Source of the DNA: Firmicutes bacterium TM09-10
GTDB lineage: Bacteria; Bacillota; Clostridia; Lachnospirales; Lachnospiraceae
Assembly (NCBI GenBank): GCA_003481005.1
Contig: QUKC01000016.1
Location: 323 to 64,322, forward strand
Direction: 5' to 3'
DNA: 64,000 bases
Shown: piece by piece, positions 353 to 20,710 of the stretch
Layout of the letters: the number at the start of each line of letters is the position of its first letter
Numbering within the stretch: position 1 is the first letter of the stretch
The notes under the pieces: generated by a model
The model's database searches: none
Told to the model about the DNA's origin: nothing
The model's input: only the letters and a program-made list of their open reading frames with translations
Translations under genes and position numbers: made by a program

Positions 353-1954
353 TTATCTCTGTACCGCGATTTTCCGATCCGCAAGCTGAATCATACTTTC
401 TTCATGCGAAACATAAATCATCGTCTGATCGAAATTTCGAACAAAATCCATCAACCATTGTTTTGCCGCCTCGTCCAGGTGGTTCGTCGGCTCGTCCAGA
501 ATCAACACCTCTGCATTTCGTAAAAGCGCCCGCGCAATCGCGATTTTCTGACATTCTCCGCCGGACAGTTCCGATTTTTCTCCACCAACCCTGCGGTCTG
601 CCAGATGGACGATTCCAACACGTTCCAGGACCTGATCGACTTTTTTCTCAGAAACCTCCTGTCCCAGCTTCACATTTTCCCGTACAGTCCCCTCAAAGAG
701 GAACGGAACCTGTTCCACAAAAGCACATTTTTCCCGCCATTTTGCAGGATTTAAGCTGCCAAGCTCCTTTCCGTTGATCAGGATTTCGCCCTGATAGCCC
801 GGGTACAAGCCGAGCAGAAGCTTTAACAGCGTTGATTTTCCGGTTCCGTTTTCGCCGTAGATCACGTTTTTTTCATGCATTGCGATCTGCTCGCTGCAGT
901 TTTTTAGGATGTCGTTTTTTCCGTCATATGAAAACGTCACGTTCCGAAAAGTGATCGACGTAACCTCCCCGACCGTTTCTCCATCCGTTCTTTCCTGAGC
1001 CTCATAAAAAACAGAAATCCGCTGCACCAGATTTTTGCAGATCGGAAGCTGCTTGACGATTTCCAGCACATATCCGGCTTCGGTCTGAAACACATAGTAA
1101 AAGCCGATCATGGCGGTGACGCTCTCTACGCCCATTTTGCCCGAAGAAATTGCGATTGCTGCTACCGCCAGAAGCACCAGCATGCAGAACGAATCCATTC
1201 CGCCCAGAATATTTTTCTGCCAGGTTTCAAGCTTCGCCTTTTTGACAAAAAGCGTTTCCAGATAGTCCTTTTGCAAACACTTTAACCGCGCCAGCTCGTC
1301 GTTTTGCAGACCGTAAAGGCAAAGTTCCACCGGTTTTTCCAGCATCTCCTGCTCGAGATTCCGCATCTTTGTCCGACTTTCCCGCTCCAGCCTGTCGTAT
1401 TCTTCTGTTTTTTTCCGGAAAAATATGGGCACGAAAATTCGAACACAACAGACTGCTGCGACGAACAGTGTAAACCATCCCATCACCGGAACCATCTGCC
1501 AGAGCAGATAGGTCACGACAATCGGAACAGAAATCAGATACATTCCTGTCGTATTCCAGTAACCTCCAAGCTGTATCTGATCTTCTTCCAGGCGAAACTG
1601 TGCATCGCTCCCCCGCAGTCCGACTGCCGCCGCATAGGTTTTATTCAAATATCGGTTGAGCACCGCCCGCTCATGGTTTAAGGACGCCCAAAACATCAAC
1701 AATTCGCCAAGCGTCGAGCATACGAGCGGCAGCGTCACCGAAATTGCCACGCAGATTAAAATCTGCCAGAGGCAGCCAAGCCCCTTTTGCATTTCATTAT
1801 TTAAGATATCTGCCGAGAACACACCCAGCATTCTTGCAGAATACGCGACCGCAACCTGGCTGACAATCAGCTGCAACGCATAAAAAAGAATCGAGCTCCA
1901 GTACGCTTTTGTGCAGTCAGCGGCGATCTGTCTGTAAATCCTGTTCTTATACAT
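353..1954 (-). CDS. ABC exporter half-transporter, last of the array (ABC1)
   Basis: A 533-residue membrane-ATPase fusion of the type I exporter kind. Residues about 15-310 carry the hydrophobic segments and 333-533 the ATPase: Walker A GENGTGKS (367-374), signature LSGGE (463-467), Walker B VLILDE with catalytic Glu488, switch His517. The start MYKNRIYRQ has GGAGGG 8 nt upstream and overlaps the TAA of the preceding gene by 8 bp, so the two are translationally coupled and probably form a heterodimer. Substrate is unknown; a peptide is an inference from the LytTR two-component system at the head of the array. The signature and catalytic residues are intact, unlike the SEGQ partner. Confidence 0.9.
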   Translation of the reverse strand: MYKNRIYRQIAADCTKAYWSSILFYALQLIVSQVAVAYSARMLGVFSADILNNEMQKGLGCLWQILICVAISVTLPLVCSTLGELLMFWASLNHERAVLNRYLNKTYAAAVGLRGSDAQFRLEEDQIQLGGYWNTTGMYLISVPIVVTYLLWQMVPVMGWFTLFVAAVCCVRIFVPIFFRKKTEEYDRLERESRTKMRNLEQEMLEKPVELCLYGLQNDELARLKCLQKDYLETLFVKKAKLETWQKNILGGMDSFCMLVLLAVAAIAISSGKMGVESVTAMIGFYYVFQTEAGYVLEIVKQLPICKNLVQRISVFYEAQERTDGETVGEVTSITFRNVTFSYDGKNDILKNCSEQIAMHEKNVIYGENGTGKSTLLKLLLGLYPGYQGEILINGKELGSLNPAKWREKCAFVEQVPFLFEGTVRENVKLGQEVSEKKVDQVLERVGIVHLADRRVGGEKSELSGGECQKIAIARALLRNAEVLILDEPTNHLDEAAKQWLMDFVRNFDQTMIYVSHEESMIQLADRKIAVQR

Positions 1955-3506
1955 AAGCCAGCCCTCCGTTCTGCAGCTTCCAGCAAACCGCATCCACCGC
2001 TTCAAATACACTGTCATGGCTGATGACCACGACTCCCCTGCCCCGTTGTGCAATCCATTCTGCCAGAGTCTTGCGTCCGGCGTCGTCTAAATGGTTGGTC
2101 GGCTCATCCAGAATCAGGAGCGTTGCATCGCCGGAAAATGCCAGCGCCAGATAAAACTTCTTCCGCTGCCCTTCCGACATCTCAGCGAGCGGCTTTTCGC
2201 AAAACTCGTTGAAATCCTCGCCCAGTTGGGAAAGGCGCTGCGCAAACGCGCGCTCGCGTACAGTCACTGCTAAGAGCATCTGCCCTACCGTCAAATCAAA
2301 GACCGGCGCTTTCTGCGGCAGATAAAAAATTTCCGATGGGAACAGCGTTTTGTCAAGCTGTCCTGTCGCGCTCCCGAGCACGGAAATCTCTCCGGACTGC
2401 GGTGTTTCCATGCCTAGCAGCAGTTTGATCAGCGTGGATTTTCCAGCGCCGTTCTCGCCCCGGATGATGTGGTTTTGAGTTAAGTCCATGCGGGCGGTGA
2501 CATTTTTCAAAACTGGCTTATCGTAAGAAAAGGAAACTCCGCGCCATTCGATTTCCATGCGGGTGGGTAACGCTGTGCTCGGGGCACTTGCATTCTCCCA
2601 CTCCTCCAGGCGTTTTTGTGCGCGGCTGCTTTCCACAAACCGCGGATAGATTTCGAACGCGCTTTTGACCGCAGCATATATGCTGCCGGACAGCGCAATC
2701 GCCTGGATGCCGGTTTCGAGGTTGGTTTTTCCGAACAGGACGAAAACGCCGATCAGGCAGTAGGTTCCGTATTTCAGGACGTGATCCAAAACCGCATACA
2801 TACCGGCTTCCGAACGGTTGGCAAAGATCGAGTTGCTTCCGATTTTTATATATGCCTGAAACAGCTCTTCCAGATGCGAAAGCCACCAGTCCTTGAGCCG
2901 ATAGAGCTTGATCGTCATAAAGCCCTGAAATGCGGAAACCGTATAATCCGTAATTTTTCCTTCGATTTCCCGGCACTTGTCGTAATTGACCTGAATATAT
3001 TTTTTTACCAGAAGCGGCGGAATAACCTGCAGAAGCGAAATCAGAATCAGGCAGATTCCGACCAACGGATTTTTCCAGCAAAGATAGCCGCCGAACAAAA
3101 CTGCTTCCGCCAGCGAAGCTGCAAACATCGGTCGATGTTCTGTCATCAGCTCCGTCACCGCGTTGAAATCGTCTTTCATATTTTCCAGATTTTTCCCAAG
3201 CCCGGAATGATACAGCTTTTCAAAGGAATCGGAAAAAATCGTCCGATACTGTTTCATTTTGCACGCCTGAACCGCCTGCTCCTTTTCTTTTCGGAACGCG
3301 ATTTCCAGCCTGCCGTAAAAATAAGTATAACAAAACACGATTGCCAGAATGCCTGCTGCCGTCGTCAGAACGCTCTTCGTCCTCCCCGCAAGCGCGTTCG
3401 TTACCTCCGTTGAAATCAAAATCGGAATGAGAATTCCATACGGAAGATGAAGCAGCTTTAAAAACAGCGACTTTCGTGCCGTCTGTTGTAATTCCCTCTT
3501 GTACAT
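1947..3506 (-). CDS. ABC exporter half-transporter with degenerate signature (ABC2)
   Basis: A 519-residue half exporter with an N-terminal membrane domain and a C-terminal ATPase. Walker A is GENGAGKS (350-357) and Walker B LLILDE (463-468), but the signature reads MSEGQ (443-447) instead of LSGGQ. It is the likely partner of the downstream ABC1, which has a normal signature; such asymmetry is known in heterodimeric exporters. I chose the start MYKRELQQ at 3506 because AAGGAGAAGG lies just upstream; an in-frame ATG at 3527 lacks a ribosome site. The two partners share similar N-termini (MYKRELQQ and MYKNRIYRQ), which points to gene duplication. Confidence 0.88.
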   Translation of the reverse strand: MYKRELQQTARKSLFLKLLHLPYGILIPILISTEVTNALAGRTKSVLTTAAGILAIVFCYTYFYGRLEIAFRKEKEQAVQACKMKQYRTIFSDSFEKLYHSGLGKNLENMKDDFNAVTELMTEHRPMFAASLAEAVLFGGYLCWKNPLVGICLILISLLQVIPPLLVKKYIQVNYDKCREIEGKITDYTVSAFQGFMTIKLYRLKDWWLSHLEELFQAYIKIGSNSIFANRSEAGMYAVLDHVLKYGTYCLIGVFVLFGKTNLETGIQAIALSGSIYAAVKSAFEIYPRFVESSRAQKRLEEWENASAPSTALPTRMEIEWRGVSFSYDKPVLKNVTARMDLTQNHIIRGENGAGKSTLIKLLLGMETPQSGEISVLGSATGQLDKTLFPSEIFYLPQKAPVFDLTVGQMLLAVTVRERAFAQRLSQLGEDFNEFCEKPLAEMSEGQRKKFYLALAFSGDATLLILDEPTNHLDDAGRKTLAEWIAQRGRGVVVISHDSVFEAVDAVCWKLQNGGLAYV

Positions 3507-3547
3507 GACCTTCTCCTTCAAAAACATAATACTTACATAGACATATT

Positions 3548-3577
3548 GCCGGGCTGCAATATGACATGCAGCCCGGC
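3548..3577. repeat. Perfect 11-bp hairpin between ABC3 and ABC2
   Basis: GCCGGGCTGCA, an 8-nt loop and TGCAGCCCGGC form a perfect inverted repeat in the 184-bp gap between two exporter pairs. No long T run follows on either strand, so it may be an mRNA stabiliser or weak attenuator rather than a full terminator. Confidence 0.6.
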
Positions 3578-3690
3578 TTTCTGACGTTTTACGCTGCCCG
3601 GCAGTTCAGCGCTGGTGCGCCGGATTACCTGCCGGAACGACAAACTTCTGAGTTTGATCAGGGACTGAGTTTGATCGGTCTGACCCCGTT

Positions 3691-5469
3691 TCACGCATAT
3701 CCCCGCCTCTGCTTCTCCCACATTTTCCAGTAGCGCCCCTTTTGCGCCAAAAGCTCCTGATGGCTGCCGCACTCCGTAATTCGTCCATGCTCCATGACGT
3801 AAATTCGATCCGTCAGTGCCGTCACGGAAAGTCTGTGCGAAATCACGATCACGCCCTGATCGGGATGTCCCTGCAGCAGCGTTTTGTTAAACGCATCCTC
3901 TGCAAACGGATCAAGCGAAGCCGCCGCTTCATCCGCAATCAGAAACTCCGTGTTATAATAGCAGGCACGCGCCAGCGCAATCTTCTGTTTCTGTCCCTCT
4001 GAAAACAGGAAACCGTCCTCGCAAAATTCCCGCAACACCTGTTTTTCGACCGGAACAAAAGTCCCTTTTCGATACAAACCGCTCTCGCACAACGCGTCCG
4101 CAGCCCGACTCTTATCTGCGTTTTCGGAAAGCGCCACATTCTCCGCCAAAGACGCCGCATACAGCAGATTTCCGGCAAACAGCACCGTGAAATGCTTCCG
4201 ACATTCCTCCCATTCTGCCTTCGTCGAAACGGCTGCTCCATCCGCAAAAATCGTCCCACTGTCCGTTTTTCCAAGTCCGAGCAATACCTTGATGAACGTC
4301 GTTTTTCCAGCGCCGCTGTCTCCGACCAATGCGATCTTTTCCCCCTTTTTCATCTGAAAACAGATGTCCTGTAAGACTTTCTTCTCCCCGTATCCGAAAT
4401 CGACATGCTCCATCGAAATCTCAGAAACCGTTTCGCCGTCTGTTGTCCCGGATTCCTGCTCTTTCTCCTCTGCTTTCTTTTCATTTTGCTCACAAAAACT
4501 AAAAAATGCATCGATGTATCCGGCGTACTCCCCGGCTCTTCCTGCCATCTGCTCAAACAGCACAGACAGCGCATACAGGATGATATGCGTCCCGTTCAAA
4601 AGCGCCGCAAAATCGTCCAGTCCGATCGTCTTTTTCCAGAAAAAACAATACCCCAGATACGCGATCATCAGACAGTCGATAAACAGGAAATCGCTCCCGA
4701 TCTCCCGTCCGAACGCAATTGGAAAAATACGCCGGTTCCACTGTTTTGTCTGCTCCGCCTTTTGCGAAAAGCTGTCCTGATCCCGTTTTACGAAAAATGG
4801 CAGGCAGCCCAGAATCCGTCCCTCTGCTGCATATTCCTTTCGCAGAAAAATCCGTAAATAGTTCTGGTGCAATGCATCTTTTTTGTTCTGTTCATCCCGC
4901 TTTGCGTTCGTTTTTTCCACCAGACTTTTGACACAGAAACGGCTTGCCACAAACGCCAGCAAAACGAAAACAACGATCATCTGATCCATGCGGATATAAA
5001 TGACGACCGCTACCGCACCAGCCAGAAAACTGCCGAACAGCTGCCGGTAAAATTCCAGCGTTTCCTCCATCTTCGTCTGCGTAAACTGCAGCGCCCGACG
5101 GTATCCATGAAAATACGCTTCGTCGTTATATTTCCTGCAGTCGGCGTCCAGCATAATCCGGTACAACCTACGGTTTAATTTATATTCCAGACGTTCCTTC
5201 CACTGCGGATAAACCCGTTCAAAATACCAGTGCCACAAAAAGCTCACTGACAGCTGGTACACCAGAAATCCTCCCAGCACCCACGCTGCCCGTATCAGAT
5301 CACGCCCCATCAGCGCGCCGATCATCCATTTCAAAACAAGGACATTCGCCAGCACATCCGCCAGGTCATATCCACCTGTCAGCACAATTTCCAGTAAAAA
5401 CAGCCCCGGTGCATCCAGAAAGCGGAGCTTCTGCAGCCGCAGATGACTTTTCAACCCGTTAAACCGCAT
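3691..5469 (-). CDS. ABC exporter half-transporter (ABC3)
   Basis: A 592-residue half exporter: membrane domain about 20-320, ATPase from about 350. Walker A GDSGAGKT (383-390); signature FSEGQ (489-493) with Glu replacing the first Gly; Walker B ends FLIADE (Glu514) and is followed by AAASLD, so the usual DEPT proline is also lost; switch region VISHRLS is intact. The start at 5469 has GGAGGGGG upstream and overlaps the end of ABC4 by 11 bp, marking a coupled pair. After its stop the mRNA reads GCGTGAAACGGGGTCAGA, very like the sequence after ABC1. Confidence 0.88.
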   Translation of the reverse strand: MRFNGLKSHLRLQKLRFLDAPGLFLLEIVLTGGYDLADVLANVLVLKWMIGALMGRDLIRAAWVLGGFLVYQLSVSFLWHWYFERVYPQWKERLEYKLNRRLYRIMLDADCRKYNDEAYFHGYRRALQFTQTKMEETLEFYRQLFGSFLAGAVAVVIYIRMDQMIVVFVLLAFVASRFCVKSLVEKTNAKRDEQNKKDALHQNYLRIFLRKEYAAEGRILGCLPFFVKRDQDSFSQKAEQTKQWNRRIFPIAFGREIGSDFLFIDCLMIAYLGYCFFWKKTIGLDDFAALLNGTHIILYALSVLFEQMAGRAGEYAGYIDAFFSFCEQNEKKAEEKEQESGTTDGETVSEISMEHVDFGYGEKKVLQDICFQMKKGEKIALVGDSGAGKTTFIKVLLGLGKTDSGTIFADGAAVSTKAEWEECRKHFTVLFAGNLLYAASLAENVALSENADKSRAADALCESGLYRKGTFVPVEKQVLREFCEDGFLFSEGQKQKIALARACYYNTEFLIADEAAASLDPFAEDAFNKTLLQGHPDQGVIVISHRLSVTALTDRIYVMEHGRITECGSHQELLAQKGRYWKMWEKQRRGYA

Positions 5470-7222
5470 CGTTTTCCCCCTCCTGTGCAAAATACTGCCG
5501 TCGCTGCGTCGTAAACATCCTGCAGTAGTCGCCGCCCTTTTCCATCAGCTCTTCGTGCGTTCCATGCTCTGCAATCATTCCGTTTTTCAGATATAAAATC
5601 TGATCTGCCTGCCGTGCAAAGGATAACCGATGCGTCACGAAAATCATCAGCTTTCCCTTTGTCGCTTCCAGCACCTCCTGCAAAATATCCGCTTCTGTCA
5701 GCGGGTCTAAAAATGCTGTCGGTTCATCCAGAATTACCGCATCGAAATCGCCCGCAAACACCCTGCACAGAGCAAGCCGCTGTCCTTCCCCGGTGGAAAA
5801 CATGGCTTTTTCCCCTTCTTCAAACAGCTCCACTGCAGTATGAATGCCCTGCGGCAGGCTTTTGATTTTTTCTTCCAGACCGACCTTTCGCAGCGCCTCC
5901 CAGACAAGCGGCTCGTCCTCTTTTCTGCATTCCCGCAGCAAAACATTTTCCGCCACGGTCGCCGGATACAGCCGGTAATCCTGCAGCAGCGCAAACACGT
6001 TTTTCCCGATTCCGGTTCGGCTGACTGCCCCATTTCTGTACAGCTTCCCGGTAAAATCCGGATAAAGCCCCAGCAGCACTTTCAGGAAGGTGGACTTTCC
6101 TGCGCCATTCTCCCCGACCAGCACAACGCATTCCCCTTTTTTCGCTAAAAAGCTGATATCATGCAGTCCAGCCGTCCCGTTCGGATAAGTAAACGAAAGC
6201 TGTTTCGCCTCAACAGACTGCAGAATTTCTTCCTGCGTTTCGTCCTTTTGTGCCGGTTTTTCTTCGGCAAAAAAGTTCAGAAAATCCTCTACATAAAGCA
6301 AATTTTCCGTAAAACGTGCATACTCTGTTCCAAGACGAACCAGTTTCGCATTCAGGTTTGCAATCGATAATACCAGCACGGAATATTCCGAAACCGGAAG
6401 CCCCTCCTGTGTCCAGAATTTCCACAGCGCATAAATATTTCCTGCGGTAAATGCGAACGTCGCGCCAAGATTATCCGCCAGAAAACCGAGCAATACCAGC
6501 GTTCCGCCCTTTTCCCGAGCAAGCATACAATTTCCCGTTTCCGCCTCCCGGTTTAAATGATCCAGAATGCTGTAGGCATCCGAAGTCCGCAGCTCCTCCA
6601 TATTTTCGTGGAAGAAAAATTTGCGCCATACATACGCCTTTTTCCGGTCATGGACACTTTTTTCCACTTCGTAATCATGCCGCACTGCTCCCTGTCTGCG
6701 CAGCACCAGCGTCAGCAAAAACGGTGCAATCGCCACGACAAACAGAACCGGATCAAGCGTCGCCAGATAGGTCAAAACCGCCACAAGCGCCGATGCCAGC
6801 CGAACCGTATTTCCGATATTTCCCATGATTTTTTCATAAGTCGCAGATGCATGATTGGCAAGATATTCCAGCCGGTTCAAAAACGCCGTTTTCTCATAGG
6901 AGGCATACGGCACCGCAGTTGCACGTTCCTCGATCCGGTGCACAATCCGCCCTTCCTGCAAAATATCCGCCTGTTCGCTGTAGCATTCCCGATACCATCT
7001 GCTCACGCCCCGAAGCACCAGATTCAGCACACAAAAGAGCGCCAGTCCTGCAAAAAAACGTTTCCCGTCCCCCTCCTGCAGACAGGAAATATAAAAGCTC
7101 ACTGCGAAAATATTGACTACAAATTCCCGCACACCGTCCAGTACATGAATCAGGATATGCAGAAAAATCCGTCCTTTCCCCAATCCGATGAGACGGAGAT
7201 ATTGTATGTATTTCTGAATCAT
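5459..7222 (-). CDS. ABC exporter half-transporter (ABC4)
   Basis: A 587-residue half exporter and first member of the ABC4-ABC3 pair. Six hydrophobic segments lie in about residues 20-310. The ATPase has Walker A GENGAGKS, signature FSTGE (Thr in place of Gly), Walker B AVILDE followed by PTAFLDP, and switch FVTHRLS. The start has GGAGGAG at good spacing. Its leader, 21 nt upstream, holds a complete copy of the 33-bp palindrome also found before other genes here. Both members of this pair have altered signatures, which is unusual because heterodimers normally keep one normal site. Confidence 0.88.
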   Translation of the reverse strand: MIQKYIQYLRLIGLGKGRIFLHILIHVLDGVREFVVNIFAVSFYISCLQEGDGKRFFAGLALFCVLNLVLRGVSRWYRECYSEQADILQEGRIVHRIEERATAVPYASYEKTAFLNRLEYLANHASATYEKIMGNIGNTVRLASALVAVLTYLATLDPVLFVVAIAPFLLTLVLRRQGAVRHDYEVEKSVHDRKKAYVWRKFFFHENMEELRTSDAYSILDHLNREAETGNCMLAREKGGTLVLLGFLADNLGATFAFTAGNIYALWKFWTQEGLPVSEYSVLVLSIANLNAKLVRLGTEYARFTENLLYVEDFLNFFAEEKPAQKDETQEEILQSVEAKQLSFTYPNGTAGLHDISFLAKKGECVVLVGENGAGKSTFLKVLLGLYPDFTGKLYRNGAVSRTGIGKNVFALLQDYRLYPATVAENVLLRECRKEDEPLVWEALRKVGLEEKIKSLPQGIHTAVELFEEGEKAMFSTGEGQRLALCRVFAGDFDAVILDEPTAFLDPLTEADILQEVLEATKGKLMIFVTHRLSFARQADQILYLKNGMIAEHGTHEELMEKGGDYCRMFTTQRRQYFAQEGENDAV

Positions 7223-7243
7223 TGTCTCCTCCAGTTATATCAA

Positions 7244-7285
7244 ACAATAGAATGCACGCTCTGCGAGCATTCTATTGTCATGAAT
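7244..7285. repeat. Family A palindromic repeat, copy 1
   Basis: ACAATAGAATGC, CGC-TCT-GCG centre and GCATTCTATTGT, followed by CATGAAT. It is almost fully self-complementary over 33 bases. Other copies: 20687-20710 (half), 31093-31134, 41182-41223 and a diverged one at 50623-50664. Here it sits in the leader of ABC4. Confidence 0.85.
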
Positions 7286-7316
7286 CAAAAATAATTTGAA
7301 GACTTTTTTGAAGTTC

Positions 7317-7490
7317 CTATCGTTTTTCCCAGGGGCAGGTAGCAATATTGTTTTTATAATCTGAACCATATATTCCAGCACATGCCGCAATTGGTTGATC
7401 AATACACGATAGTTCATCTGCATTAAATAAATCATCAAAAAAACCAATATTAAGATCAAATTGCCCTCTTTATTTTAAAATTTGTTCCAT
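7317..7490 (-). pseudogene. Small Cys-containing peptide frame with an internal stop
   Basis: Read on the minus strand, ATG at 7490 follows AGAGGAAAAGAG just after the ABC5 stop. It encodes MEQILK, then TAA, then 50 in-frame codons to a TAG at 7317. The second part contains FDLNIGFFDDLFNADELS followed by a segment with three cysteines (SCID, AACAG, ATCPW) and ends PWEKR. An acidic FDLN-type leader before a Cys-rich tail resembles precursors of ribosomally made modified peptides. With the stop at codon 7 it is either a broken precursor gene or chance. No family is recognised. Confidence 0.35.
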
Positions 7491-7501
7491 TCTCTTTTCC
7501 T

Positions 7502-9319
7502 CTACACTTTATAATACTGCGCCTGAGCCTGCCATAGCTGCGCATAGAGCCCGTTTTTGGAAAGCAGCGCCTCATGCGTTCCGCTCTCCGCTATTTTCCC
7601 GTTATCCAGAACAAAAATCCGGTCACTGAACTTGCAGCTGGAAAGCCTATGGGAAATGTAAACCGCAGTTTTACCCTTGACGATCTCATCAAAGCTCTCA
7701 TAAACCCTGCTTTCTGAAACAGGATCAAGCGCCGCAGTCGGCTCATCCAGAATGCAAATCTGACCGCCCTTATAAATCGCCCTTGCGATCGCAATCTTCT
7801 GCTCTTCTCCTCCGGAAAACGAAACGCCATCCTGCTCGTATTCCGGATATACCACGGTTTCCAGACCTTTCTTTAGTTTATTCAGACGTTCCCCAAAGCC
7901 TGCCAGCTGCAGCACCTCTTTTGCACGCTCTGCTTCATACTGCTCAGAAGCGGCTACATTTTGCCCAAGCGTCAGGGATAACAGGGAATAATCCTGAAAA
8001 ACGATCGCAAAAATCTTCTGCCACTCCCTCAAATCATATTCCCGGATATTTTTGCCGTTCCAGAGGATTTCTCCCTCCTCCGGCTCATACAGCCTGCAAA
8101 GAAGCTTTACGAGCGTCGTTTTCCCGCTTCCATTCTTCCCGACCACTGCGATTTTCTCAGACGGCTCGATTTTCAGACTGACATGATCCAGAACCAGCTC
8201 TTTTGTCCCCGGATACCGGAAAGAAACATTCCGAAACTCAATCACCCCTTTTGTCATCTCTGTGAAAGAATCTCCCTTTGTTTTCTCTGCTTCCAGGTTC
8301 AGATATTCCAGGGTACTTGCGATCCTGCCAACATCCGTCCGAAATTCCCCTGCCAACCGGATGGATGCTGAAACCGACATACATGCCTGAAAAATTGCCT
8401 GCGCATACCGCAGCACCATGCCGACCGTGATCGTCCCGGCAATTGCCAGCGCCAGCACGCAATAATAGGAAACACACAGCAAAATTCCCTGAATCATGCC
8501 AGTTCCAAGCCCGCCTGCACTATTGATTCTGGCAATGGTAAATACATTTTTCCTGACACCTTCCCGTTCTGTATCGATCGTTTTCTGGATCATTTTCTTC
8601 GCACGGTACATAAAAATATCTTTCAAAGACTGTGCCCCGATCGCACCGCTTCCGCCTTCATCCATATACCAGAAGCGGCTGTCCTTTTCTGCCTGAGTCA
8701 TTTGATTCATCGCAGCAGATTCTTTCTTCTGATACCATTTGGCATAAACCGACGCGCCGACCACAGCCAGACCTATATTGAACAGAAGCGCTGCCGCAAC
8801 CCTCCCCGCCGCGCTCCCGGAAACCTGCATTGCAAGCGGAATCAGCATAATAACCGAACCAAGCAGTTCGAACCCGGAATTGCAGAGGTTGCAAAACTTA
8901 TCTGCGACTCCAAAAAATCCGCTTCCCCAGCTTCGGTCTGCCAAAATCCTCGCCCGCATTTCCTTTGCATAATCCGATTCCAGATCAGAAAAAGAAATAT
9001 TCAGGGTATTTACCGGAACAAGCGTCTCAAAACGCATGGCAATCTGATAGCTTCTGGTTTTCATCTCCTTTTCCAGAAGCGCTTTTACACCTTTCAAAAG
9101 CCAGATTCCGACCAGTCCAACAACTGCTATAGAAACCGGATCTGCAGAATTTTCCCTGTAAACCAGCAAATCCAGAATTCTGGCAACCAAAAGTACCGGC
9201 AGATAGAAAAGCAGGGCATTCAATCCTCCCTGAAGAATCACAATTACAGGGAACTTCCGATCCATCGCCCAAAGCAATTTTATTGTATCCCGAACAGGAA
9301 CTTTTCGTTTTTCTTTCAT
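7502..9319 (-). CDS. ABC exporter half-transporter (ABC5)
   Basis: A 605-residue half exporter with a complete consensus ATPase: Walker A GKNGSGKT, signature FSGGE, Walker B ICILDE with PTAALDP, switch YISHRLS. The N-terminal about 320 residues carry the membrane segments. The start has GGAGGAGG and its ATG overlaps the TGA of ABC6 (ATGA), so the two form a tightly coupled pair. Both members look catalytically competent. A 280-bp gap follows, with the broken peptide frame and a Family A palindrome. Confidence 0.9.
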   Translation of the reverse strand: MKEKRKVPVRDTIKLLWAMDRKFPVIVILQGGLNALLFYLPVLLVARILDLLVYRENSADPVSIAVVGLVGIWLLKGVKALLEKEMKTRSYQIAMRFETLVPVNTLNISFSDLESDYAKEMRARILADRSWGSGFFGVADKFCNLCNSGFELLGSVIMLIPLAMQVSGSAAGRVAAALLFNIGLAVVGASVYAKWYQKKESAAMNQMTQAEKDSRFWYMDEGGSGAIGAQSLKDIFMYRAKKMIQKTIDTEREGVRKNVFTIARINSAGGLGTGMIQGILLCVSYYCVLALAIAGTITVGMVLRYAQAIFQACMSVSASIRLAGEFRTDVGRIASTLEYLNLEAEKTKGDSFTEMTKGVIEFRNVSFRYPGTKELVLDHVSLKIEPSEKIAVVGKNGSGKTTLVKLLCRLYEPEEGEILWNGKNIREYDLREWQKIFAIVFQDYSLLSLTLGQNVAASEQYEAERAKEVLQLAGFGERLNKLKKGLETVVYPEYEQDGVSFSGGEEQKIAIARAIYKGGQICILDEPTAALDPVSESRVYESFDEIVKGKTAVYISHRLSSCKFSDRIFVLDNGKIAESGTHEALLSKNGLYAQLWQAQAQYYKV

Positions 9320-11100: not shown

Positions 11101-11139
11101 TCTATACGTCCCCCCTTATATCGGTGAACTCTTTCCGTT

Positions 11140-11715
11140 TTAACGATACCACTCTGCCTGGCTTTCGTACAGCTTCTGATACACCGGGCACGTTTGGGAC
11201 AGTTCTTCATGACTTCCTGTTCCGGCAATTTTATGATTTTTGTCCATGACGATGACCTGATCCATCAGGCGGCAGATTCCGATTCGGTGCGTAATAATCA
11301 ACACGGTTTTATCCTTCAATTGTTCCAGGATTTCAGCCACTGCCTCTGCCTCGTGGGATGGGTCAAGATACGCGGTCGGTTCATCCAGCACATAGAATTC
11401 CGCGTCCTTATGCAAACAACGATATAATGCTACGCGCTGCCATTGTCCGCCAGACAGCTCCTGCCCGCCATATTCTTTTCCGAGGAACCAGTTTTCCAGC
11501 GAAAAATTCTCCGGGTGCACACTGTCTGCATCGTCAAAGCCGATGTTCTCCGCAACCGTCAGGCAGTATCGCCCAAACTCGTGCGGCATCACGGAAATAT
11601 TGCTGTAGTCGCAGTCTCGCTCCGCGCTCACCAAAACTTTGTCGTAGCTAATGCTGCCGCTCTTTAAAGGATACAGACCCAGCAGGCATTTTATGAGAGT
11701 GGTCTTGCCCCTCTG
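11140..11715 (-). pseudogene. Truncated ABC exporter: ATPase tail only (ABC7 remnant)
   Basis: About 190 codons of an ATPase domain. It opens directly after the TAA of ABC8 with CAGAGGGG and then reads GKTTLIKCLLGLYP, so it begins inside the Walker A motif. Signature LSGGQ, Walker B FYVLDE with PTAYLDP and switch IITHRIG are all present. The whole membrane domain and the front of the ATPase are missing. CAGAGGGG looks like the original ribosome site, so a deletion appears to have joined it to the P-loop codons. A weak TTG start (11634) exists, but the product could not bind ATP normally. Confidence 0.85.
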
Positions 11716-13494
11716 TTAAACAACGTAATTCTCCGCCTGTGCTTTCCACATCCGGCTGTAAAGTCCGCCTGCCGCAAGCAGCTCCTCATGCGTTCCTGCT
11801 TCGGCAATCCGACCTTTTTCCATCACCAAAATCCGGTCAGCCAGGCGTGCAGAAGCGAGCCGGTGTGTTACGATCACCGCTGTTTTTCCCTTTACCATCT
11901 GTAAAAATTTCTCATACACAGCGCTTTCTTCCACAGGATCGATCGCCGCGGTCGGTTCGTCCAGCACAATCAGGTCATGTTCCCGGTACTGTCCCCTCGC
12001 AATCGCCACCTGCTGCCAGAGCCCTCCGGACAGGTCGATTCCCTCAAACTCCCGCGACAGCATCAGTTCGCTGCACTGCGCAACTGCTTCCGGCTTTAAG
12101 CCCGTTCGCTCCAGCAGCGGTTTTACCGGCGCATTCTTTTTCGGGTCGCTGATCGTCACGTTGTCCTGCAGCGTCATCTGGTATCTCATGTAATTCTGGA
12201 ACACGGCAGAGCGCCCGATACAGCCGTCCTGCGTGGTTCCCTGTTCCGCGCCGCACGGCTGCGTCACTGCTCCATCCTCCACTGTCACAGCCCCTTGTGT
12301 CGGCGGGTACAGCCCCAGGATCAGCTTCGCCAGCGTCGATTTTCCCGCGCCGTTCTCCCCGACAATCGCCAGGTGCTCTTTTTCCGGGATCGTCAGGTTC
12401 AGCTGCTCAATCGAAGGCTCCTTTGCGCTGGGATAGGTAAAGGAAACATCCGAAAACTGCATCGTCTTCCCCATCCGCGGCACGTCCTTCCAGCTCCTGC
12501 CCGGATCTTTTTCCAGGAATGCCACATAGTTCTCCACAGCAGGCAGACTGCCTACTGCACTTCCAAGAAATCCACAGACCAGTGCAAATACCATGTCAAA
12601 TAACGAATTTAACGCATAGTATACTGCCGCAAATGCACCGACCGAGATGCTTCCCTTTAAAACGCTCACCACTAAAATCAGCACAGCGCCCAGATACCCA
12701 ATCATCCCGACCGTCTGGTTGATGGCATCCAGCCCGTTCGCCTTTGTGCGGACTGCAGCCTCTTTTTCACACAGCTGCTGCTGTTCGGTTTTCATCTTCC
12801 CAAAGAAAAACGGCACAGCGCGCAGCACCCTCGTCTCCTTGATAAATGCAAGGTCTGTCAGGCACTTCCGGTAGCCCTGATATTTCCGTCTGACCGGCGC
12901 TGCCGTATCTTCATAGCTATAAAAAATATTTCTCTGCATGTACAGTGTCACGATGGACGGCACAAATGAAATCACGATACACAACAGCAGCACAGGGTTC
13001 AGGGATGCCGCATAAATCGCAAAAAATACCAGATACGGCGGAACCATGTCGATGATGCCGATCATATGGAACATGAAAACATTCGCATCGTCCCGTCCAG
13101 CCTGTGCCTTCTGGATTTCATCCAGCGACTCGCTCTGCTCAAATGCCAGCGGAAAAAGCTTCGAAATTTTCTCGTTAAATTCATAACGATACGTCTCGTC
13201 ACAGATTTCCAGAAATTCCGTCAGCGCATAGTTAAACAGCGTATTCAACAGCTGGTAGCCGATAATTCCGCATACATAAAAAGCTGTCGCAGCGATCAGC
13301 GCTGCCTCAAACCGCCCCTTTCCGACAGAAGCGATCAGCTCATTCACAAAATTCGAAAGCAGCAAGGTATTTGCGCCCATCACGACTGACTGCGAAATGC
13401 CCAGCACATTGATCAGGATAAACCGCAGCGGCGCTGCATGAAACGCCATCGGAAACATGACGCGCACGGTATGGAAAAAGCTTCTTTTTTTCAC
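11716..13494 (-). CDS. ABC exporter half-transporter (ABC8)
   Basis: A 592-residue half exporter starting at GTG 13494, with AGGAGGTGG upstream. GTG overlaps the TGA of ABC9, so these two are a coupled pair. Membrane domain about 15-330; ATPase with Walker A GENGAGKS, signature LSGGL followed by WQQ, Walker B LIVLDE with PTAAIDP, switch IVTHRLA. The fifth signature position is Leu instead of Gln/Glu; the partner has VSGGE-WQR. Its stop codon abuts the deleted ABC7 gene. Confidence 0.88.
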   Translation of the reverse strand: MKKRSFFHTVRVMFPMAFHAAPLRFILINVLGISQSVVMGANTLLLSNFVNELIASVGKGRFEAALIAATAFYVCGIIGYQLLNTLFNYALTEFLEICDETYRYEFNEKISKLFPLAFEQSESLDEIQKAQAGRDDANVFMFHMIGIIDMVPPYLVFFAIYAASLNPVLLLCIVISFVPSIVTLYMQRNIFYSYEDTAAPVRRKYQGYRKCLTDLAFIKETRVLRAVPFFFGKMKTEQQQLCEKEAAVRTKANGLDAINQTVGMIGYLGAVLILVVSVLKGSISVGAFAAVYYALNSLFDMVFALVCGFLGSAVGSLPAVENYVAFLEKDPGRSWKDVPRMGKTMQFSDVSFTYPSAKEPSIEQLNLTIPEKEHLAIVGENGAGKSTLAKLILGLYPPTQGAVTVEDGAVTQPCGAEQGTTQDGCIGRSAVFQNYMRYQMTLQDNVTISDPKKNAPVKPLLERTGLKPEAVAQCSELMLSREFEGIDLSGGLWQQVAIARGQYREHDLIVLDEPTAAIDPVEESAVYEKFLQMVKGKTAVIVTHRLASARLADRILVMEKGRIAEAGTHEELLAAGGLYSRMWKAQAENYVV

Positions 13495-15236
13495 AGATAC
13501 CACCTCCTCTGCGTTTCGTACATTTCGCAATAGATGCCGTTTTTCACCATCAGGTCTTCATGGGATCCCTGCTCCATCGCCTTTCCGTCCTCAATCGCGA
13601 TGATCCAGTCGCACAAAGATGTGGCGCCCAATCGGTGCGTAATCATAATCGTTGTCGTATCCTGATACAGCTTCAAAAACTTCTGGTAAATCTGCTGCTC
13701 CCGCACCGGGTCGATCGCCGCGGTCGGCTCGTCTAAAATTTTCAGTTCTGCATCCTGATAATACAGGCGTGCCATCGCAATCCGCTGCCACTCACCGCCG
13801 GAGACGTCCACGCCGTCCTCTGCGATTTTCCCAAGTACCGTGTCCATGCCCTGCGGCAGCTTTTCCAGCACATTGTCCAGTTCGGAGGTTTCCGCCGCTT
13901 TGGCAATTTTTGCCCGCTGCCCTGCATCCGCGCCGGGCGCGATATTGTCCGCTACCGAGACCGGATACTTCGCATAATCCTGGAACAGCACGCCGAACAG
14001 CTTCCAGATCTGCTCCCTCGAAAACGTCTCGATCTTTTCCCCATTTAACAAAATCTCACCGGAATCCGGCTCATACAAGCGTAAAATCAGCTTTACAATC
14101 GTCGATTTGCCGCAGCCGTTGCGCCCGACAAACGCGTAGTGGTGCCCTTTTTCGATCCGAAAGCACATATCCTTTAACACCATCGCTTCGGTGTTCGGAT
14201 AATGGAACGAAACATGGGAAAATTCCAGCGACTCAAACGAAAGCGCTGCGCTACTGTCCGGTTTTTCCTCATATTCCGGCAGCTCCAAAATACGTTTCAT
14301 GTCGCCCAACAGCTGTCTGCCCTGCTCCATCTCCTTGAGCATTCCCGGCAACTGCCAGGTCAGGTTCTGCGCCATTGCCATAAAGGACGTCACCAGCGAA
14401 ACGAAAACACCGACGGAAGTATTGCCCTGCACAACCGGGAAAATCAGCGCAAAGATCACCAGAATCGACAGTGCGATCGCCAGAAATCCGCCCATGTTCA
14501 TGCCGATGAACCACCAGCGTCTCGCTTTCCGCTCCCGCAGCCTTGCGGTCTGTCTTTCTTTTAAGAAAATCCCGTTGACCCAATCGCCAAATCCGAACAG
14601 AACCCGTTCATTTGCCGCGTCGCGGTTCCCCAGAATCTCTTCTGCATAAGCAGCTTTCCGCTTTCCGAGTGTGACCTCTTTTTTCGCCTCATACTGCTTC
14701 TGCCCGCCTTTTACCGCAAAGAACCCGAAGCCGACCAGCAGCACCATGATAACCGGAGAAATCCAGACCGGAGCCTGCGTAATCAGCCACACAACCAGAC
14801 AGCCGTTGGAAATCAGGAAGCAGACCATCGAAAAGCCGCTTTCCAGGACGCCGTTTAGCACCTCCTCTGGGTCTTTCGACACCCGCTCCAGCGCGTCCTG
14901 AATCTCCGTATTCTCCAGAAATCCATACGGAATCCGCGAAATTTTTCCGATCATCCGCTCGTCCAGATATGGAAAAAGCACCTTCCGCTGGTGAATCCGC
15001 ATCCAGGTATCCAGATTTCCGCCCAGCCGCTGGCACAGGATCAAAGCTCCCAACAGGCAGGCGTCGCGGATCGCCTCTTCCATCCGCTGATTTAACACCA
15101 GGTCGATAAACCGCGCGCTGACCAGCATTGTTAAAAACGGCAGCAACGCAGATACGATTTTTTCAAGGAATCTCCCAACTACCAGAAACTTCCCCGGCGC
15201 ATGCCGAAGCGACATGCCAGTTTCCCCTTGTTTCAT
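13491..15236 (-). CDS. ABC exporter half-transporter (ABC9)
   Basis: A 581-residue half exporter, first of the ABC9-ABC8 pair. The ATPase has Walker A GRNGCGKS, signature VSGGEWQR, Walker B LKILDE with PTAAIDP and switch MITHRLG, all compatible with activity. The N-terminal half carries the hydrophobic segments. Ribosome site AAGGGGG lies before ATG 15236, 33 bp after ABC10 ends. The SGGEWQR-type signature and the PTAAIDP block link it to ABC8 more than to the other pairs. Confidence 0.9.
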   Translation of the reverse strand: MKQGETGMSLRHAPGKFLVVGRFLEKIVSALLPFLTMLVSARFIDLVLNQRMEEAIRDACLLGALILCQRLGGNLDTWMRIHQRKVLFPYLDERMIGKISRIPYGFLENTEIQDALERVSKDPEEVLNGVLESGFSMVCFLISNGCLVVWLITQAPVWISPVIMVLLVGFGFFAVKGGQKQYEAKKEVTLGKRKAAYAEEILGNRDAANERVLFGFGDWVNGIFLKERQTARLRERKARRWWFIGMNMGGFLAIALSILVIFALIFPVVQGNTSVGVFVSLVTSFMAMAQNLTWQLPGMLKEMEQGRQLLGDMKRILELPEYEEKPDSSAALSFESLEFSHVSFHYPNTEAMVLKDMCFRIEKGHHYAFVGRNGCGKSTIVKLILRLYEPDSGEILLNGEKIETFSREQIWKLFGVLFQDYAKYPVSVADNIAPGADAGQRAKIAKAAETSELDNVLEKLPQGMDTVLGKIAEDGVDVSGGEWQRIAMARLYYQDAELKILDEPTAAIDPVREQQIYQKFLKLYQDTTTIMITHRLGATSLCDWIIAIEDGKAMEQGSHEDLMVKNGIYCEMYETQRRWYL

Positions 15237-15269
15237 TTGTGCAGTCCCCCTTACTAAATTTTCTCCTTC

Positions 15270-16862
15270 TCATCCAATCTGTTCTATCTGCGCATCCTTT
15301 AAAAGAATCCTCTTATCGTGAGTAATCACGATGTACTTTTTGTCCATGCTTTCAAGCAAACGCCGGATATCTTCGATATTTGCCCCATCCAGATTCGATA
15401 CCGGCTCATCCAGCACTACATATGTCGTATCCCGCATCAGAGTTCCGCACAGAGCCAGGCGTTGCCGCTGTCCGGTCGATATAGTTTTGGCATTCACCTT
15501 CGTATCCATTCCCTCCGGCAAAGCCATCACCGTCTCAAACAGGTTGGCCTTTTTTAAATAGTCCTCGTAAAAGCGATCTTCTTTTCCCGGAGCAGCAAGC
15601 TGGAAATTCTCCCGGATCGTCAAATCCAAAATCGGAAAATCCTGCGGCAGATAGGCATATCCGTTTATCAAGGCTTCCTCCGAAATCTTCTTTAACTCTA
15701 CCCCATTACAGAGAAAACTCCCCCGATAGTCCCGGTATAAACCAAGCATTATTTTGGTAAACGTCGATTTTCCAGCCCCTTTTTCGCCGATCAAAAACAG
15801 ATTCTTTTTTCCGGAATATTCGAGATTTTGCAGATGCAGCCCTACTTTTTTGCCGTAAGCATACGACAGCTGTGTGACTTTCCATTCTAGCTTGTCCACA
15901 TCGATCTTTTCCTTCTGGCTTTCTTCTGTCTCCCTACCGAAATAGGGTTCAATCCGTTCAAATCCGGCTCTGCATTTCTTCAGCTCTCCGATTCCTCTGC
16001 CCATTACTCTGAAAATAGACATGAAAGCGGTGATATTGGTAATCAGCGCCAGCATCATGCCAATTGTAAACTCATGGAACAGGACTCCCACCAAAAACAG
16101 TGGCAAATACGTCTGCAAAAAGCCGATACCATACTCAAACACTGAGGTAATCACTTGCCACTTACACTGTTCCAAATTCGAATCCAGATAAGCCCGATAC
16201 AGGTCTTTCCATTTGCTTTTCAAACAGGAAAAACGGAAAAAAGAACTGTATTCCCTGCTTTCATATCTTTGTATCAAAACATCGTTGAGGAGCGCATTAT
16301 AGTCCTGAATTTCCCGCTGATACTTTCCCAGCCGCGGGCTTACCAGCACCCGATAAAGAATCAACACACAGCCCAGAGCCGTCAGGCTGAGCCCGATTAC
16401 AACGTTCGTCCCATAAATATAAACGATGGCTCCCGCCGATACTGCGATCTGAGCGAAAAGCTGATCGAGCTGCGTATAAAAATCCGATGCCAGCTGCAAA
16501 TCCGAATAGCAGGCGCTGTAAATTTCAGAATCCCTGGTTCCCCGCTGACTTTCATAGGGCTGCTTCCATATATGATGGAAGATGTTCTGCATATTTTCAT
16601 ATTGTCTTTTATACATAAAAATACTCTTGCCGTATTGCAGGAGATATTCTGCCAGCCCAAGGCAGCAAATAAGGCAAAGCATTCCCAAATACTGCGGCAA
16701 ATAGGAACCGATTTCCCGTTCGATGATATCGTCCACCAAATTTTGCATGATTTGAGCCGACAGCCACACAAGAATCCCTTTTATGGCACTGTCGATCAAA
16801 ACGATTGCAAAATAAGGAAGATTATACCCCCCATAAATAGAGAAAATACTTTTTTTACTCAT
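15270..16862 (-). CDS. ABC exporter half-transporter (ABC10)
   Basis: A 530-residue half exporter starting MSKKSIFSIYGGYN. Its ATG overlaps the TGA of ABC11 (ATGA), with CAGGGGAC upstream. Walker A GEKGAGKS; signature ISTGQ (Thr for Gly); Walker B YVVLDE with PVSNLDG; switch VITHDKR. It is shorter than the other exporters and, with ABC11, forms the most divergent pair, placed first in the array. The altered signature suggests an asymmetric heterodimer with ABC11, which keeps FSGGQ. Confidence 0.88.
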   Translation of the reverse strand: MSKKSIFSIYGGYNLPYFAIVLIDSAIKGILVWLSAQIMQNLVDDIIEREIGSYLPQYLGMLCLICCLGLAEYLLQYGKSIFMYKRQYENMQNIFHHIWKQPYESQRGTRDSEIYSACYSDLQLASDFYTQLDQLFAQIAVSAGAIVYIYGTNVVIGLSLTALGCVLILYRVLVSPRLGKYQREIQDYNALLNDVLIQRYESREYSSFFRFSCLKSKWKDLYRAYLDSNLEQCKWQVITSVFEYGIGFLQTYLPLFLVGVLFHEFTIGMMLALITNITAFMSIFRVMGRGIGELKKCRAGFERIEPYFGRETEESQKEKIDVDKLEWKVTQLSYAYGKKVGLHLQNLEYSGKKNLFLIGEKGAGKSTFTKIMLGLYRDYRGSFLCNGVELKKISEEALINGYAYLPQDFPILDLTIRENFQLAAPGKEDRFYEDYLKKANLFETVMALPEGMDTKVNAKTISTGQRQRLALCGTLMRDTTYVVLDEPVSNLDGANIEDIRRLLESMDKKYIVITHDKRILLKDAQIEQIG

Positions 16863-18466
16863 AATGTCCCCTGTTTTAATGTTCCGTCCTCCAGTATGTA
16901 GCACGCATCCATCCTTCTGCACAGCTCTTCATCATGGCTTGCCACGATCACGCAGAGGGACTTCGACAATTCTTCTATCTGATTTACAACTTCCTTCTTT
17001 GTATTCTCATCCAGCGATGCAGTCGGTTCATCCAAAACCAGCAGGGCGCTCTTTTTGGCCGCCGCACGGGCGAATCCGATCAGTTTCTGTTGTCCTCCGG
17101 AGAAATTACTTCCGTTTTCGTCAACTACCGTGTTTATTTCTGATTCTAAGAACTGGTTGATTCTGGGCGCATCGGCAAACAACGCCGACCGTTCCGACTC
17201 CAGAAAGATATTTTTTTCCACCGTATCTTCCACAAAAAAAGAATTGGTGCTCAGATAAGAGACGGCATCCGGCACAAACGCCGGGAAAAATCGTTGATTG
17301 TAAACAATCGTCCCCTTCTTCGGTCCATATAATCCGGAGATCACTTTTAACAGAGTACTCTTTCCCTCGCCGGACATTCCCTTTATGGCAATCGAACCGG
17401 TAACGGGTATTGTCATATCGATCTGCGACAAGACAGGCTTATCCCCGTAAGAAAAGGATAGCTGCTGCAATAAAATCAAATGATCTTCAATATCTCTGCG
17501 TTCATAAACAACCGGCTCTTCTTCCTCTTCTTCGATCACTTGCAACACATTCCTGACCACCGGCTCAGCCCCACGAAAATCCTTATACATCTGAATCAGC
17601 TGAAATACGGAAGGAACTAAAAAGCTGGAAAAAATTGCCGTTGAAACCGCAATCCCGCCGGGCGTAATCTCGCCCCGCCGATACAGCAATACGGCGTATA
17701 TCGGCACGACCAGTTTGATCCCATTTTCCAGCAAAAATTGCACCCAGGAAAATCCGGCCTTTTTCCTTTCCATGCTCTTCTGCGAAGCGCAGATTGCCCC
17801 ATTCTTCTTCTGATAGATTGCATCGATCTTTTCGCCATACCCATTTGCCTTCACCAAATCCAGCTTCGCCAGGGTATCGATAAAAAAATGACGGCTGGAA
17901 GCCTGTGCATCGACGATTTTCCGGTTCACCAGACGCATTCTTTCCGTAATGACCTTGAAAAAATACGCAAATGGAATCAGCAGCAATAAAACCAAATCCA
18001 ATTTCCAGCTCACAAAAAAGCCAATAAACAGCACAAAACCAAGGGACTCAAAGACGCAGTATGGAAGGGAATAAGCAATTGTTAAAAACAGTTCACTCAG
18101 ATCTTCCACGAGTTCATTGGTATTGAGTAGATCTCCCAGTTCCTTTTTCTGTGCAAACCCATAGGACTTCTTTTCATAGGCTTCCACCAGTTTTTCACGG
18201 ATCTCCTTGACAAACAATATCCGGTATTTTTCAGCCAGATATCCTTCTCCCAACCGGTCTGTCACAAAGGTGCTGATAGCCATGATCAGGAACCAGGTAA
18301 CAGCAATCCACAGCCGTGTCCCCTCTCTTCCAAAGGCGTAATCCACCGCATACTTAAGAGAATAGTTCATAATCAAAGAAGTGCAGGAAGAGACAATTCC
18401 CAGCAGTCCCAGAACCAACAGTTCTTTTTTGAAATTTTGAAGGATGAAATCAATAAATTTATTCAT
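16859..18466 (-). CDS. ABC exporter half-transporter, first of the array (ABC11)
   Basis: A 535-residue half exporter starting MNKFIDFILQNFKKE with GGAAG upstream. About six hydrophobic segments precede an ATPase with Walker A GMSGEGKS, signature FSGGQ, Walker B LLVLDE with PTASLDE and switch VIVASHDEE. It is the first gene after the two-component system, behind a good -10 box (18502-18507). The pair ABC11-ABC10 is followed by four more pairs, all in the same direction with short gaps, so one long transcript is plausible. Confidence 0.9.
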   Translation of the reverse strand: MNKFIDFILQNFKKELLVLGLLGIVSSCTSLIMNYSLKYAVDYAFGREGTRLWIAVTWFLIMAISTFVTDRLGEGYLAEKYRILFVKEIREKLVEAYEKKSYGFAQKKELGDLLNTNELVEDLSELFLTIAYSLPYCVFESLGFVLFIGFFVSWKLDLVLLLLIPFAYFFKVITERMRLVNRKIVDAQASSRHFFIDTLAKLDLVKANGYGEKIDAIYQKKNGAICASQKSMERKKAGFSWVQFLLENGIKLVVPIYAVLLYRRGEITPGGIAVSTAIFSSFLVPSVFQLIQMYKDFRGAEPVVRNVLQVIEEEEEEPVVYERRDIEDHLILLQQLSFSYGDKPVLSQIDMTIPVTGSIAIKGMSGEGKSTLLKVISGLYGPKKGTIVYNQRFFPAFVPDAVSYLSTNSFFVEDTVEKNIFLESERSALFADAPRINQFLESEINTVVDENGSNFSGGQQKLIGFARAAAKKSALLVLDEPTASLDENTKKEVVNQIEELSKSLCVIVASHDEELCRRMDACYILEDGTLKQGTL

Positions 18467-18656
18467 AGTTTCAGCTTCCGTATACTTTTTATCTATTTTA
18501 CATTATATCACTTATTTTCTCTTATTTTTTTAACATGTAAAAAATAACCAGTTTCCTGTAAAAACTGACAACTTAACATATCCTGTAATTCTTTCAAACA
18601 AACCAAAATATCGCCAAGGTATAGAAAATTCTACATCCTGACGACATTTTATATAC
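18467..18656 (-). promoter_or_regulatory. Promoter region of the exporter array
   Basis: On the minus strand a perfect TATAAT (18502-18507) lies about 35 bp before the ABC11 start, with no recognisable -35 box, as expected for an activated promoter. Upstream are two copies of TTACAGGA (18581-18588 and 18554-18561) 27 bp apart, with GTCAGTTT between them. These could be binding sites for the adjacent LytTR regulator, although the spacing is larger than the usual 21-22 bp. A 17-codon ATG frame at 18647 has no clear ribosome site. Confidence 0.5.
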
Positions 18657-19670: not shown

Positions 19671-19673
19671 TTT

Positions 19674-19919
19674 CTAACTTCCTTCATATAATATAAAGGC
19701 AAAGCAAAGATATCCTATTATAATCGAGATTCTAACAACAATAATTCCTGTAGAAAATACATACAACAATGAATTTATCAACCATACGATGAAATAGAGA
19801 CAAAGCTTTTTTCCCCATTTTATTTTTTTGCTTACAAGAAATAACTCTATCGTACGATATCCAACATACACACTCAATATATTGTATAAAAATCTGAATA
19901 TTGTTTCGTAAATTTCCAT
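19674..19919 (-). CDS. Membrane N-terminal part of the split sensor kinase
   Basis: 81 residues with two or three hydrophobic segments (VYVGYRTIELFLVS, LYFIVWLINSLLYVF, ISIIIGYLCFAFILY). It ends in TAG at 19674-19676. The next codons in the same frame are AAA then the ATG of the kinase part. Together they match the length and layout of an AgrC-type sensor, whose N-terminal half is a polytopic ligand-sensing domain. Thus this is either the front of a gene broken by one nonsense change, a readthrough site, or a two-piece sensor. It starts 2 bp after the response regulator stop. Confidence 0.75.
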   Translation of the reverse strand: MEIYETIFRFLYNILSVYVGYRTIELFLVSKKIKWGKKLCLYFIVWLINSLLYVFSTGIIVVRISIIIGYLCFAFILYEGS

Positions 19920-20650: not shown

Positions 20651-20686
20651 ATTTTTTACTCCCCCCAAATGCACTTTTGCAAAATT

Positions 20687-20710
20687 TGCGAGCATTCTAT
20701 TGTCATGAAT
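20687..20710. repeat. Family A repeat, right half only (copy 2)
   Basis: TGCGAGCATTCTATTGTCATGAAT is identical to the right half of the 7244-7285 copy; the left half is absent. It marks the boundary between the exporter island and the carbohydrate locus, so a rearrangement through the repeat is possible. Confidence 0.7.

Follow-up and report, generated by a model that had tools for sequence, protein, structure and literature searches.

A candidate mosaic bank of five ABC exporter pairs behind an agrCA-like gene pair in a Lachnospiraceae bacterium

The minus strand of a 64,000-nucleotide stretch of Firmicutes bacterium TM09-10 (contig QUKC01000016.1 of assembly GCA_003481005.1, positions 323 to 64,322; the window in what follows) carries, at window positions 353-18466, ten open reading frames (ORFs) of 526-605 amino acids (aa), each with a Pfam match to the ATPase domain of ATP-binding cassette (ABC) transporters (ABC_tran, 10/10). 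Chance is no explanation for ten consecutive long ABC ORFs. They are arranged as five pairs, A to E, head to tail, with a relic between B and C, and a LytTR response regulator and an AgrC-like kinase are encoded ahead of them. Judged from trees and approximately unbiased (AU) tests, at least three of the five pairs were gathered from different lines and not copied from one another. The explanation preferred here, tentatively, is that the array is a mosaic efflux or immunity bank of five heterodimeric type IV exporters behind an agrCA-type switch that has no agrB nearby.

Ten half-size exporters in five pairs

Pair A (18466-15270) consists of A1 (16859..18466; 535 aa, PF00005 and PF00664, a near-orphan family) and A2 (15270..16922, likely start ATG 16862), and pair B (15236-11716) of B1 (13491..15236; 581 aa) and B2 (11716..13530, likely start GTG 13494). 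Pair C (11100-7502) is made up of C1 (9316..11100; 594 aa) and C2 (7502..9319; 605 aa), pair D (7222-3691) of D1 (5459..7222; 587 aa) and D2 (3691..5490, likely start ATG 5469), and pair E (3527-353) of E1 (1947..3527; 526 aa) and E2 (353..2053, likely start ATG 1954). All are minus-strand half-size ABC exporters assigned by Pfam, with start context in addition for the five second genes, tree position for B1, B2, E1 and E2, motifs for D1, D2 and E1, and structure for C1 (model and Foldseek) and D2 (model). At the starts judged most plausible from context, the two genes of a pair overlap by 4 bases in A, B and C, by 11 in D and by 8 in E. The relic (11140..11715, minus strand; identified by Pfam, frame and ATPase tree) has lost its membrane domain; what is left is the C-terminal portion of an ATPase domain, beginning at the GKT of Walker A right after the B2 stop codon; in the ATPase tree and by sequence comparison it is closest to B2-type second subunits. 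It is the sole interruption of the series, and the ORFs scanned include no further recognisable gene in the array. In all this an earlier note on the same DNA, which had described ten intact half-size exporters and one relic in five overlapping pairs with no producer gene between them, is upheld.

Throughout 353-20695 the scanned ORFs with a Pfam match are the exporters, the relic, the regulator and the kinase alone; no biosynthetic gene was found among them, and a short unannotated precursor could escape such a scan. The small ORFs tested in the spacers between pairs have no Pfam match, nor do two ORFs considered as possible AgrD peptide genes, one of 74 aa (7235-7459) and one of 56 aa (18530-18700) that ends in Cys and overlaps the end of the kinase. 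The spacers measure 33 bp between A2 and B1, 279 bp between C2 and D1 and 163 bp between D2 and E1. Gaps that are short throughout A to C and longer before D and E hint that A, B and C may form a single unit, with D and E as further units. An inverted repeat with 11-bp arms (GCCGGGCTGCA) and, by eye, no T run lies between D2 and E1 at 3548-3577. G+C content is 34% in the regulator/kinase block, 45% in A, 53% in B, 48% in C and 50% in D and E.

In all ten proteins ABC_tran occupies the C-terminal half and the membrane domain is fused N-terminal to it, with 3-6 hydrophobic segments preceding the ATPase domain by a simple hydrophobicity scan. The exporter membrane domain PF00664 is matched at E<=0.001 in five of the ten (A1, A2, B1, E1 and E2, that of E1 being under the curated cut-off) and is unmatched at that threshold in B2, C1, C2, D1 and D2. 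Every frame is open and keeps Walker A and the Walker B glutamate (10/10), while the signature motif is altered in A2, D1 (FSTGE), D2 (FSEGQ) and E1 (MSEGQ). Pfam finds the C39 peptidase domain (PF03412) in none of the ten, and no NCBIfam model reached its cut-off among the best 25 listed per protein. The structure model of D2 has the exporter fold (predicted local distance difference score, pLDDT, 80.1; predicted template modelling score, pTM, 0.62); it and that of C1 (pLDDT 81.7, pTM 0.47) align over nearly their full length with MsbA, PCAT1, Atm1 and TmrAB, and the top Foldseek match of the C1 model is the peptide exporter PCAT1, which does not figure among the best 50 VIA-align matches listed for C1. 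A role in anti-phage defence was considered and rejected: the PADLOC matches, from an input of nine proteins (A1, A2, B1, B2, D1, E1, E2, kinase and regulator, with C1, C2, D2 and the relic excluded), are short stretches of shared ATPase motifs.

Ancestry and relatives of the pairs

The half-transporter tree has 100 rows, the ten of the window and relatives from 60 fetched loci (L numbers; G numbers denote genomes). Each of B, C and E clusters with genes from other genomes, and does so subunit by subunit: first genes join first genes and second genes join second genes. The clade of B1 has 8 members (support in the Shimodaira-Hasegawa-like approximate likelihood ratio test, SH-aLRT, 98) and that of B2 has 7 (97), both containing the same loci of G533, G653, G808 and G820. 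C1 and C2 are in clades of 6 each (99) from the same five loci, two of which are near-identical, and E1 and E2 are sisters of the adjacent genes L114_9815 (SH-aLRT 100) and L114_8248 (99). A clade with 14 members (99) holds both D1 and D2; the branches of A1 and A2 are long and have no placement. AU tests on 73 rows (27 of the 100 were dropped: A, E, long branches and near-duplicates), made with quick LG+G4 trees and no mixture model, rejected all the groupings: B1+C1 (p = 8e-73), B2+C2 (1e-27), C1+D1 (0.004), C2+D2 (0.002), B1+C1+D1 (1.4e-48) and B2+C2+D2 (3.6e-7). Nearest relatives in other genomes and the AU rejections together argue for a mosaic array, assembled from different sources and not grown in place, and on these sequence comparisons B, C and D, as whole proteins, and E are taken as shown to have separate ancestries.

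The earlier note had proposed instead that the array grew by tandem duplication and divergence, and had called for trees of the separate domains. That proposal finds no support in the full-length tree and the AU tests, which reject recent tandem duplication for B, C and D as a set, and as a general account duplication in place is now very improbable, though it may still hold for A. For the domain trees 9 rows were dropped, plus 3 without a Walker A match. By nearest rows the membrane-domain tree repeats the full-length pattern (support 99 for D and 97-100 for E); D1 and D2 group there with 12 genes from other genomes (SH-aLRT 99) and B1 and C1 are in no small starred set, whereas the ATPase-only tree leaves A2, C1, C2, D1 and D2 without a starred set. 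What duplication can draw on is that in the latter tree, by unsupported path distances, A2 is nearest D1 and D1/D2 are nearest C1, that A1, E1 and E2 are each there in a starred set of 6 (95), and that D1 and D2 join at a support of 89, flagged as a long-branch join. The lack of resolution in the ATPase-only tree leaves room for exchange inside the array, and ATPase domains may have been so exchanged.

The array looks narrow in range though close copies are numerous. The protein collection contains ten full-length relatives of C1 at 91-99% identity and 18 at 41-52% (P0015-P0032); the A1 homologs, among the best 120 listed, comprise copies at 97-99%, three at 38-42% and the rest at 31% or less. 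The database clusters are large (C1, P0001, 913 sequences; A1, P0186, 916). Genome scans with C1, with scoring limited to the top 3 candidates of each genome, gave 9 matches at 1e-60 among 398 genomes of the phylum (best 33%) and 12 at 1e-84 among 397 of the family (best-scoring 37%); in 79 genomes of the nearest genus the best-scoring match was 36%, and viral contigs gave no match. One scan of genome contigs gave 8 distant loci at 28-33%. A1 had no match at 1e-45 in the 79 nearest-genus genomes, in a search without a positive control, and its best match in 60 hand-picked genomes was 2.5e-35. The closest of the 398 sampled genomes is G146, at 78% RarA identity. A 474-aa database protein, P0050, joins CbiQ (PF02361) to an ATPase part 73% identical to that of C1, and is either a chimera or a real fusion.

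Smaller exporter runs occur elsewhere. In at least three of the 60 hand-picked genomes (G495, G653 and G865) three B1-like half-transporters lie within about 7 kb. G865 has a run B1-B2-C1-C2 (L113) and another in which three C-type genes, an epimerase gene and one more pair lie together (L112); G495 has B1-B2-C1 (L109); and that of G653, which stops at a contig edge, is B1-B2-regulator-kinase-B1 (L110), B-type only. The search for the array order elsewhere that the earlier note had recommended recovered B before C, in L109 and L113, but only as part of such smaller runs.

Peptide-modifying enzymes adjoin some relatives. PqqD and a radical SAM-SPASM protein are next to the B-type pair of L120; a phosphopantetheine protein, an S8 protease, a radical SAM protein and YcaO are next to that of L117; and two radical SAM proteins adjoin the E-type L114. 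At the D-type L119 a radical SAM gene lies about 3 kb beyond the pair. Neither L118 (an AMP-binding fragment) nor L125 (polyketide or non-ribosomal peptide synthesis, judged by eye alone) was included among the peptide loci. C-type relatives have other company. Among 20 loci selected for matching C1, hits to both the regulator and the kinase lie close to the pair in 14 (L059, L061-L065, L067-L070, L072 and L075-L077), none of these having a recognised peptide gene; one hit is present in 2 (L078, at a contig edge, and L071) and neither in 4 (L060, at a contig edge, L066, L073 and L074); three couples, L061/L062, L069/L070 and L076/L077, are near-identical. Such a regulator-kinase-pair without a peptide gene is what an inducible resistance pump would be expected to give. 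LytTR and GHKL domains were confirmed by Pfam in all four C-type loci tested (L059, L061, L069 and L076) and in the B-type L110, and a regulator pair is also present in the B-type L110 and L111. Of the kinase hits at C-type loci, 14/15 have 0-1 hydrophobic segments by the simple scan (one is a contig-edge fragment). That most of these kinases are without a membrane sensor is a hint that in the LytTR-GHKL-exporter module the exporter itself may be the sensor.

The regulator, the kinase and their surroundings

A LytTR regulator and an AgrC-like kinase had been placed by the earlier note at the head of the array in the same direction. Pfam and strand bear this out, with the amendments that both genes lie beyond the 353-18466 span given there and that the kinase frame is interrupted. 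The AgrA-like regulator (19922..20695, minus strand, likely start ATG 20650) matches PF04397 at 7.5e-19 and PF00072 at 1e-11, and the GHKL kinase (18657..19919, minus strand) PF14501 at 1.3e-18 and PF14689 at 3.3e-11. An in-frame stop splits the kinase into two same-frame ORFs, 19919-19674 (81 aa) and 19670-18657 (337 aa). Three homologs, P0121-P0123, have the kinase uninterrupted at 419-420 aa and are 97-98% identical to its second part, from which it follows that the window copy is interrupted, either by mutation or by a sequence error. Translation could restart at an ATG after the stop, leaving the first membrane segments separate. One kinase homolog, at 45% identity, is labelled Lachnospiraceae.

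At 20 loci of kinase relatives the regulators are 26-43% and the kinases 27-37% identical to those of the window. Six neighbour proteins picked by eye, covering six of these loci, were all confirmed as AgrB, and at those six identity to the window pair is 37-41% for the regulator and 31-35% for the kinase. No AgrB was found among the 18 ORFs scanned in 119-23613 of the window. With relatives of agr type and no AgrB in the scanned ORFs, the pair is best described as agrCA-like without AgrB nearby.

The gap upstream of A1 is 190 bp. In 18467-18700, ahead of A1, there is by eye a TATAAT without an obvious −35 element, and a 9-of-12 promoter-like site; the region as a whole has 31 promoter-like sites where shuffles give an expected 23.3. 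A search for LytTR direct repeats found no significant site; the observed count was reached by 58 of 200 shuffles ahead of the response regulator, 154/200 ahead of D1 and 33/200 ahead of E1.

A dispersed 46-bp palindromic repeat has five copies in the 64 kb (7243-7288, 20668-20713, 31092-31137, 41181-41226 and 50622-50667), two of them at only 70-72% identity. The first is in the C2-D1 spacer, and a degenerate copy, 20668-20713, is at the start of the regulator ORF. Elsewhere in the window a 104-nt direct repeat (55453-55556 and 62699-62802; 7.2 kb apart) is 96% identical, short-period repeats accompany a Val/Ala/Ser-rich ORF at 39576-40145, and Rfam identifies a Clostridiales-1 RNA (40077-40248, 130.6 bits) and a drum RNA (43663-43773, 92.5 bits).

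Explanations and known systems

In the proposed bank each pair would work as an obligate heterodimer, and the pumps would clear the cell of peptide-type or similar antimicrobials that its neighbours produce. The cell would in this way possess a store of immunities while carrying no producer genes. An intact kinase would sense an extracellular peptide and the LytTR regulator would turn on at least pair A, with B and C following by read-through. The bank would grow by acquisition, perhaps via recombination at the dispersed palindromes or at related ATPase domains, and pairs would also be lost over time, the relic being a trace of this. We infer peptide-antimicrobial efflux from some of the B-, C- and E-type relatives and from the absence of producer genes. 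Of the earlier suggestion of a resistance or export bank for several peptides, grown by duplication, the former part gains from the enzymes beside some B and E relatives, and the latter is not supported. A more specific form, in which unrelated foreign heterodimers are stacked under one agrCA-type switch freed from agrBD, so that one cue answers several competitors and pairs are exchanged via the palindromes as swappable immunities, is doubtful.

Several observations weigh against the efflux or immunity bank. The switch may be dead, as the kinase frame is cut in this sequence; the LytTR direct-repeat count ahead of A1 was reached by 24 of 200 shuffles; and separate promoters may lie in the gaps before D and E. 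Peptide-enzyme neighbours are confirmed for only two B-type loci and one E-type locus, with no peptide gene recognised at the B-type L109, L113 and L121 or the D-type L116, L123, L127 and L128. The C-type genes of L109, L112, L113, L124 and L126, loci fetched for reasons other than a C1 match, have no regulator pair. The type IV exporter fold predicted for C1 and D2 is also that of the importers IrtAB and YbtPQ, from which, as from lipid flippases, structure search cannot tell exporters; so the models fix neither substrate nor direction.

Uptake, with some pairs acting like the siderophore importers IrtAB or YbtPQ, could exploit that last point and is nevertheless very unlikely: same-fold exporters are within about 1-1.5 Z, and no siderophore or energy-coupling factor (ECF) gene was matched in the ORFs scanned. 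Export of the cell's own peptides, with biosynthetic genes elsewhere in the genome and the agr-type switch timing secretion, is rather unlikely. In its favour are the peptide-modifying enzymes beside the B- and E-type relatives in L114, L117 and L120; a weak argument against it is that no producer gene is present in the array and none was recognised by eye in the rest of the window. It is also unlikely that the locus is a landing site at which diverse exporter pairs pile up and decay, each under its own promoter, mostly unselected and with no common function. The mosaic ancestry seen in trees and AU tests would fit, as would the relic ATPase, the broken kinase and the dispersed palindromes that lie between C2 and D1 and at the start of the regulator. 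However, ten open frames have all kept Walker A, the Walker B glutamate and their overlaps, and the database clusters of C1 and A1 are many-membered.

If the efflux or immunity bank is real, exporter arrays are to gut bacteria what resistance islands are to others, and from how many pairs a strain has, and of which kinds, one could predict the antimicrobial peptides that it survives. For the LytTR-GHKL-exporter module, whose kinases are mostly without a membrane sensor, the idea of the exporter as sensor becomes testable.

None of the titles and abstract openings found in the literature, with few subscription journals covered, describes such an exporter array. An Enterococcus faecalis study (PMC4997860) concerns seven heterodimeric exporter pairs, EfrCD among them. 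The exporter runs of G865, G495 and G653 resemble the array in having adjacent exporter genes, and L109 and L113 repeat the window's order of B before C, but they have three to five half-transporters per fetched stretch, and L109, L112 and L113 are without a regulator pair. The LytTR-GHKL-exporter module shares the order of regulator, kinase and then a C1-C2-type pair, whereas the window kinase is of the AgrC type with multiple segments and has five pairs behind it where the module has one. With agrBDCA the window has in common an AgrC-like GHKL kinase and an AgrA-like LytTR regulator; it differs in having exporters instead of AgrB, which is missing from the scanned ORFs, and in the interruption of its kinase. 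Peptidase-containing bacteriocin exporters (PCATs) differ by their PF03412 domain, absent from every window exporter. TmrAB, BmrCD and TM287/288 are, like each window pair, two adjacent fused half-transporters, with the exporter fold in the two modelled members, C1 and D2. Those heterodimers carry one degenerate site, whereas all ten window exporters retain the Walker B glutamate; the window further differs in the altered signature motifs of A2, D1, D2 and E1 and in having five contiguous pairs. In Bce/LanFEG-type resistance modules ATPase and permease are on separate proteins; in all ten of the window they are fused.

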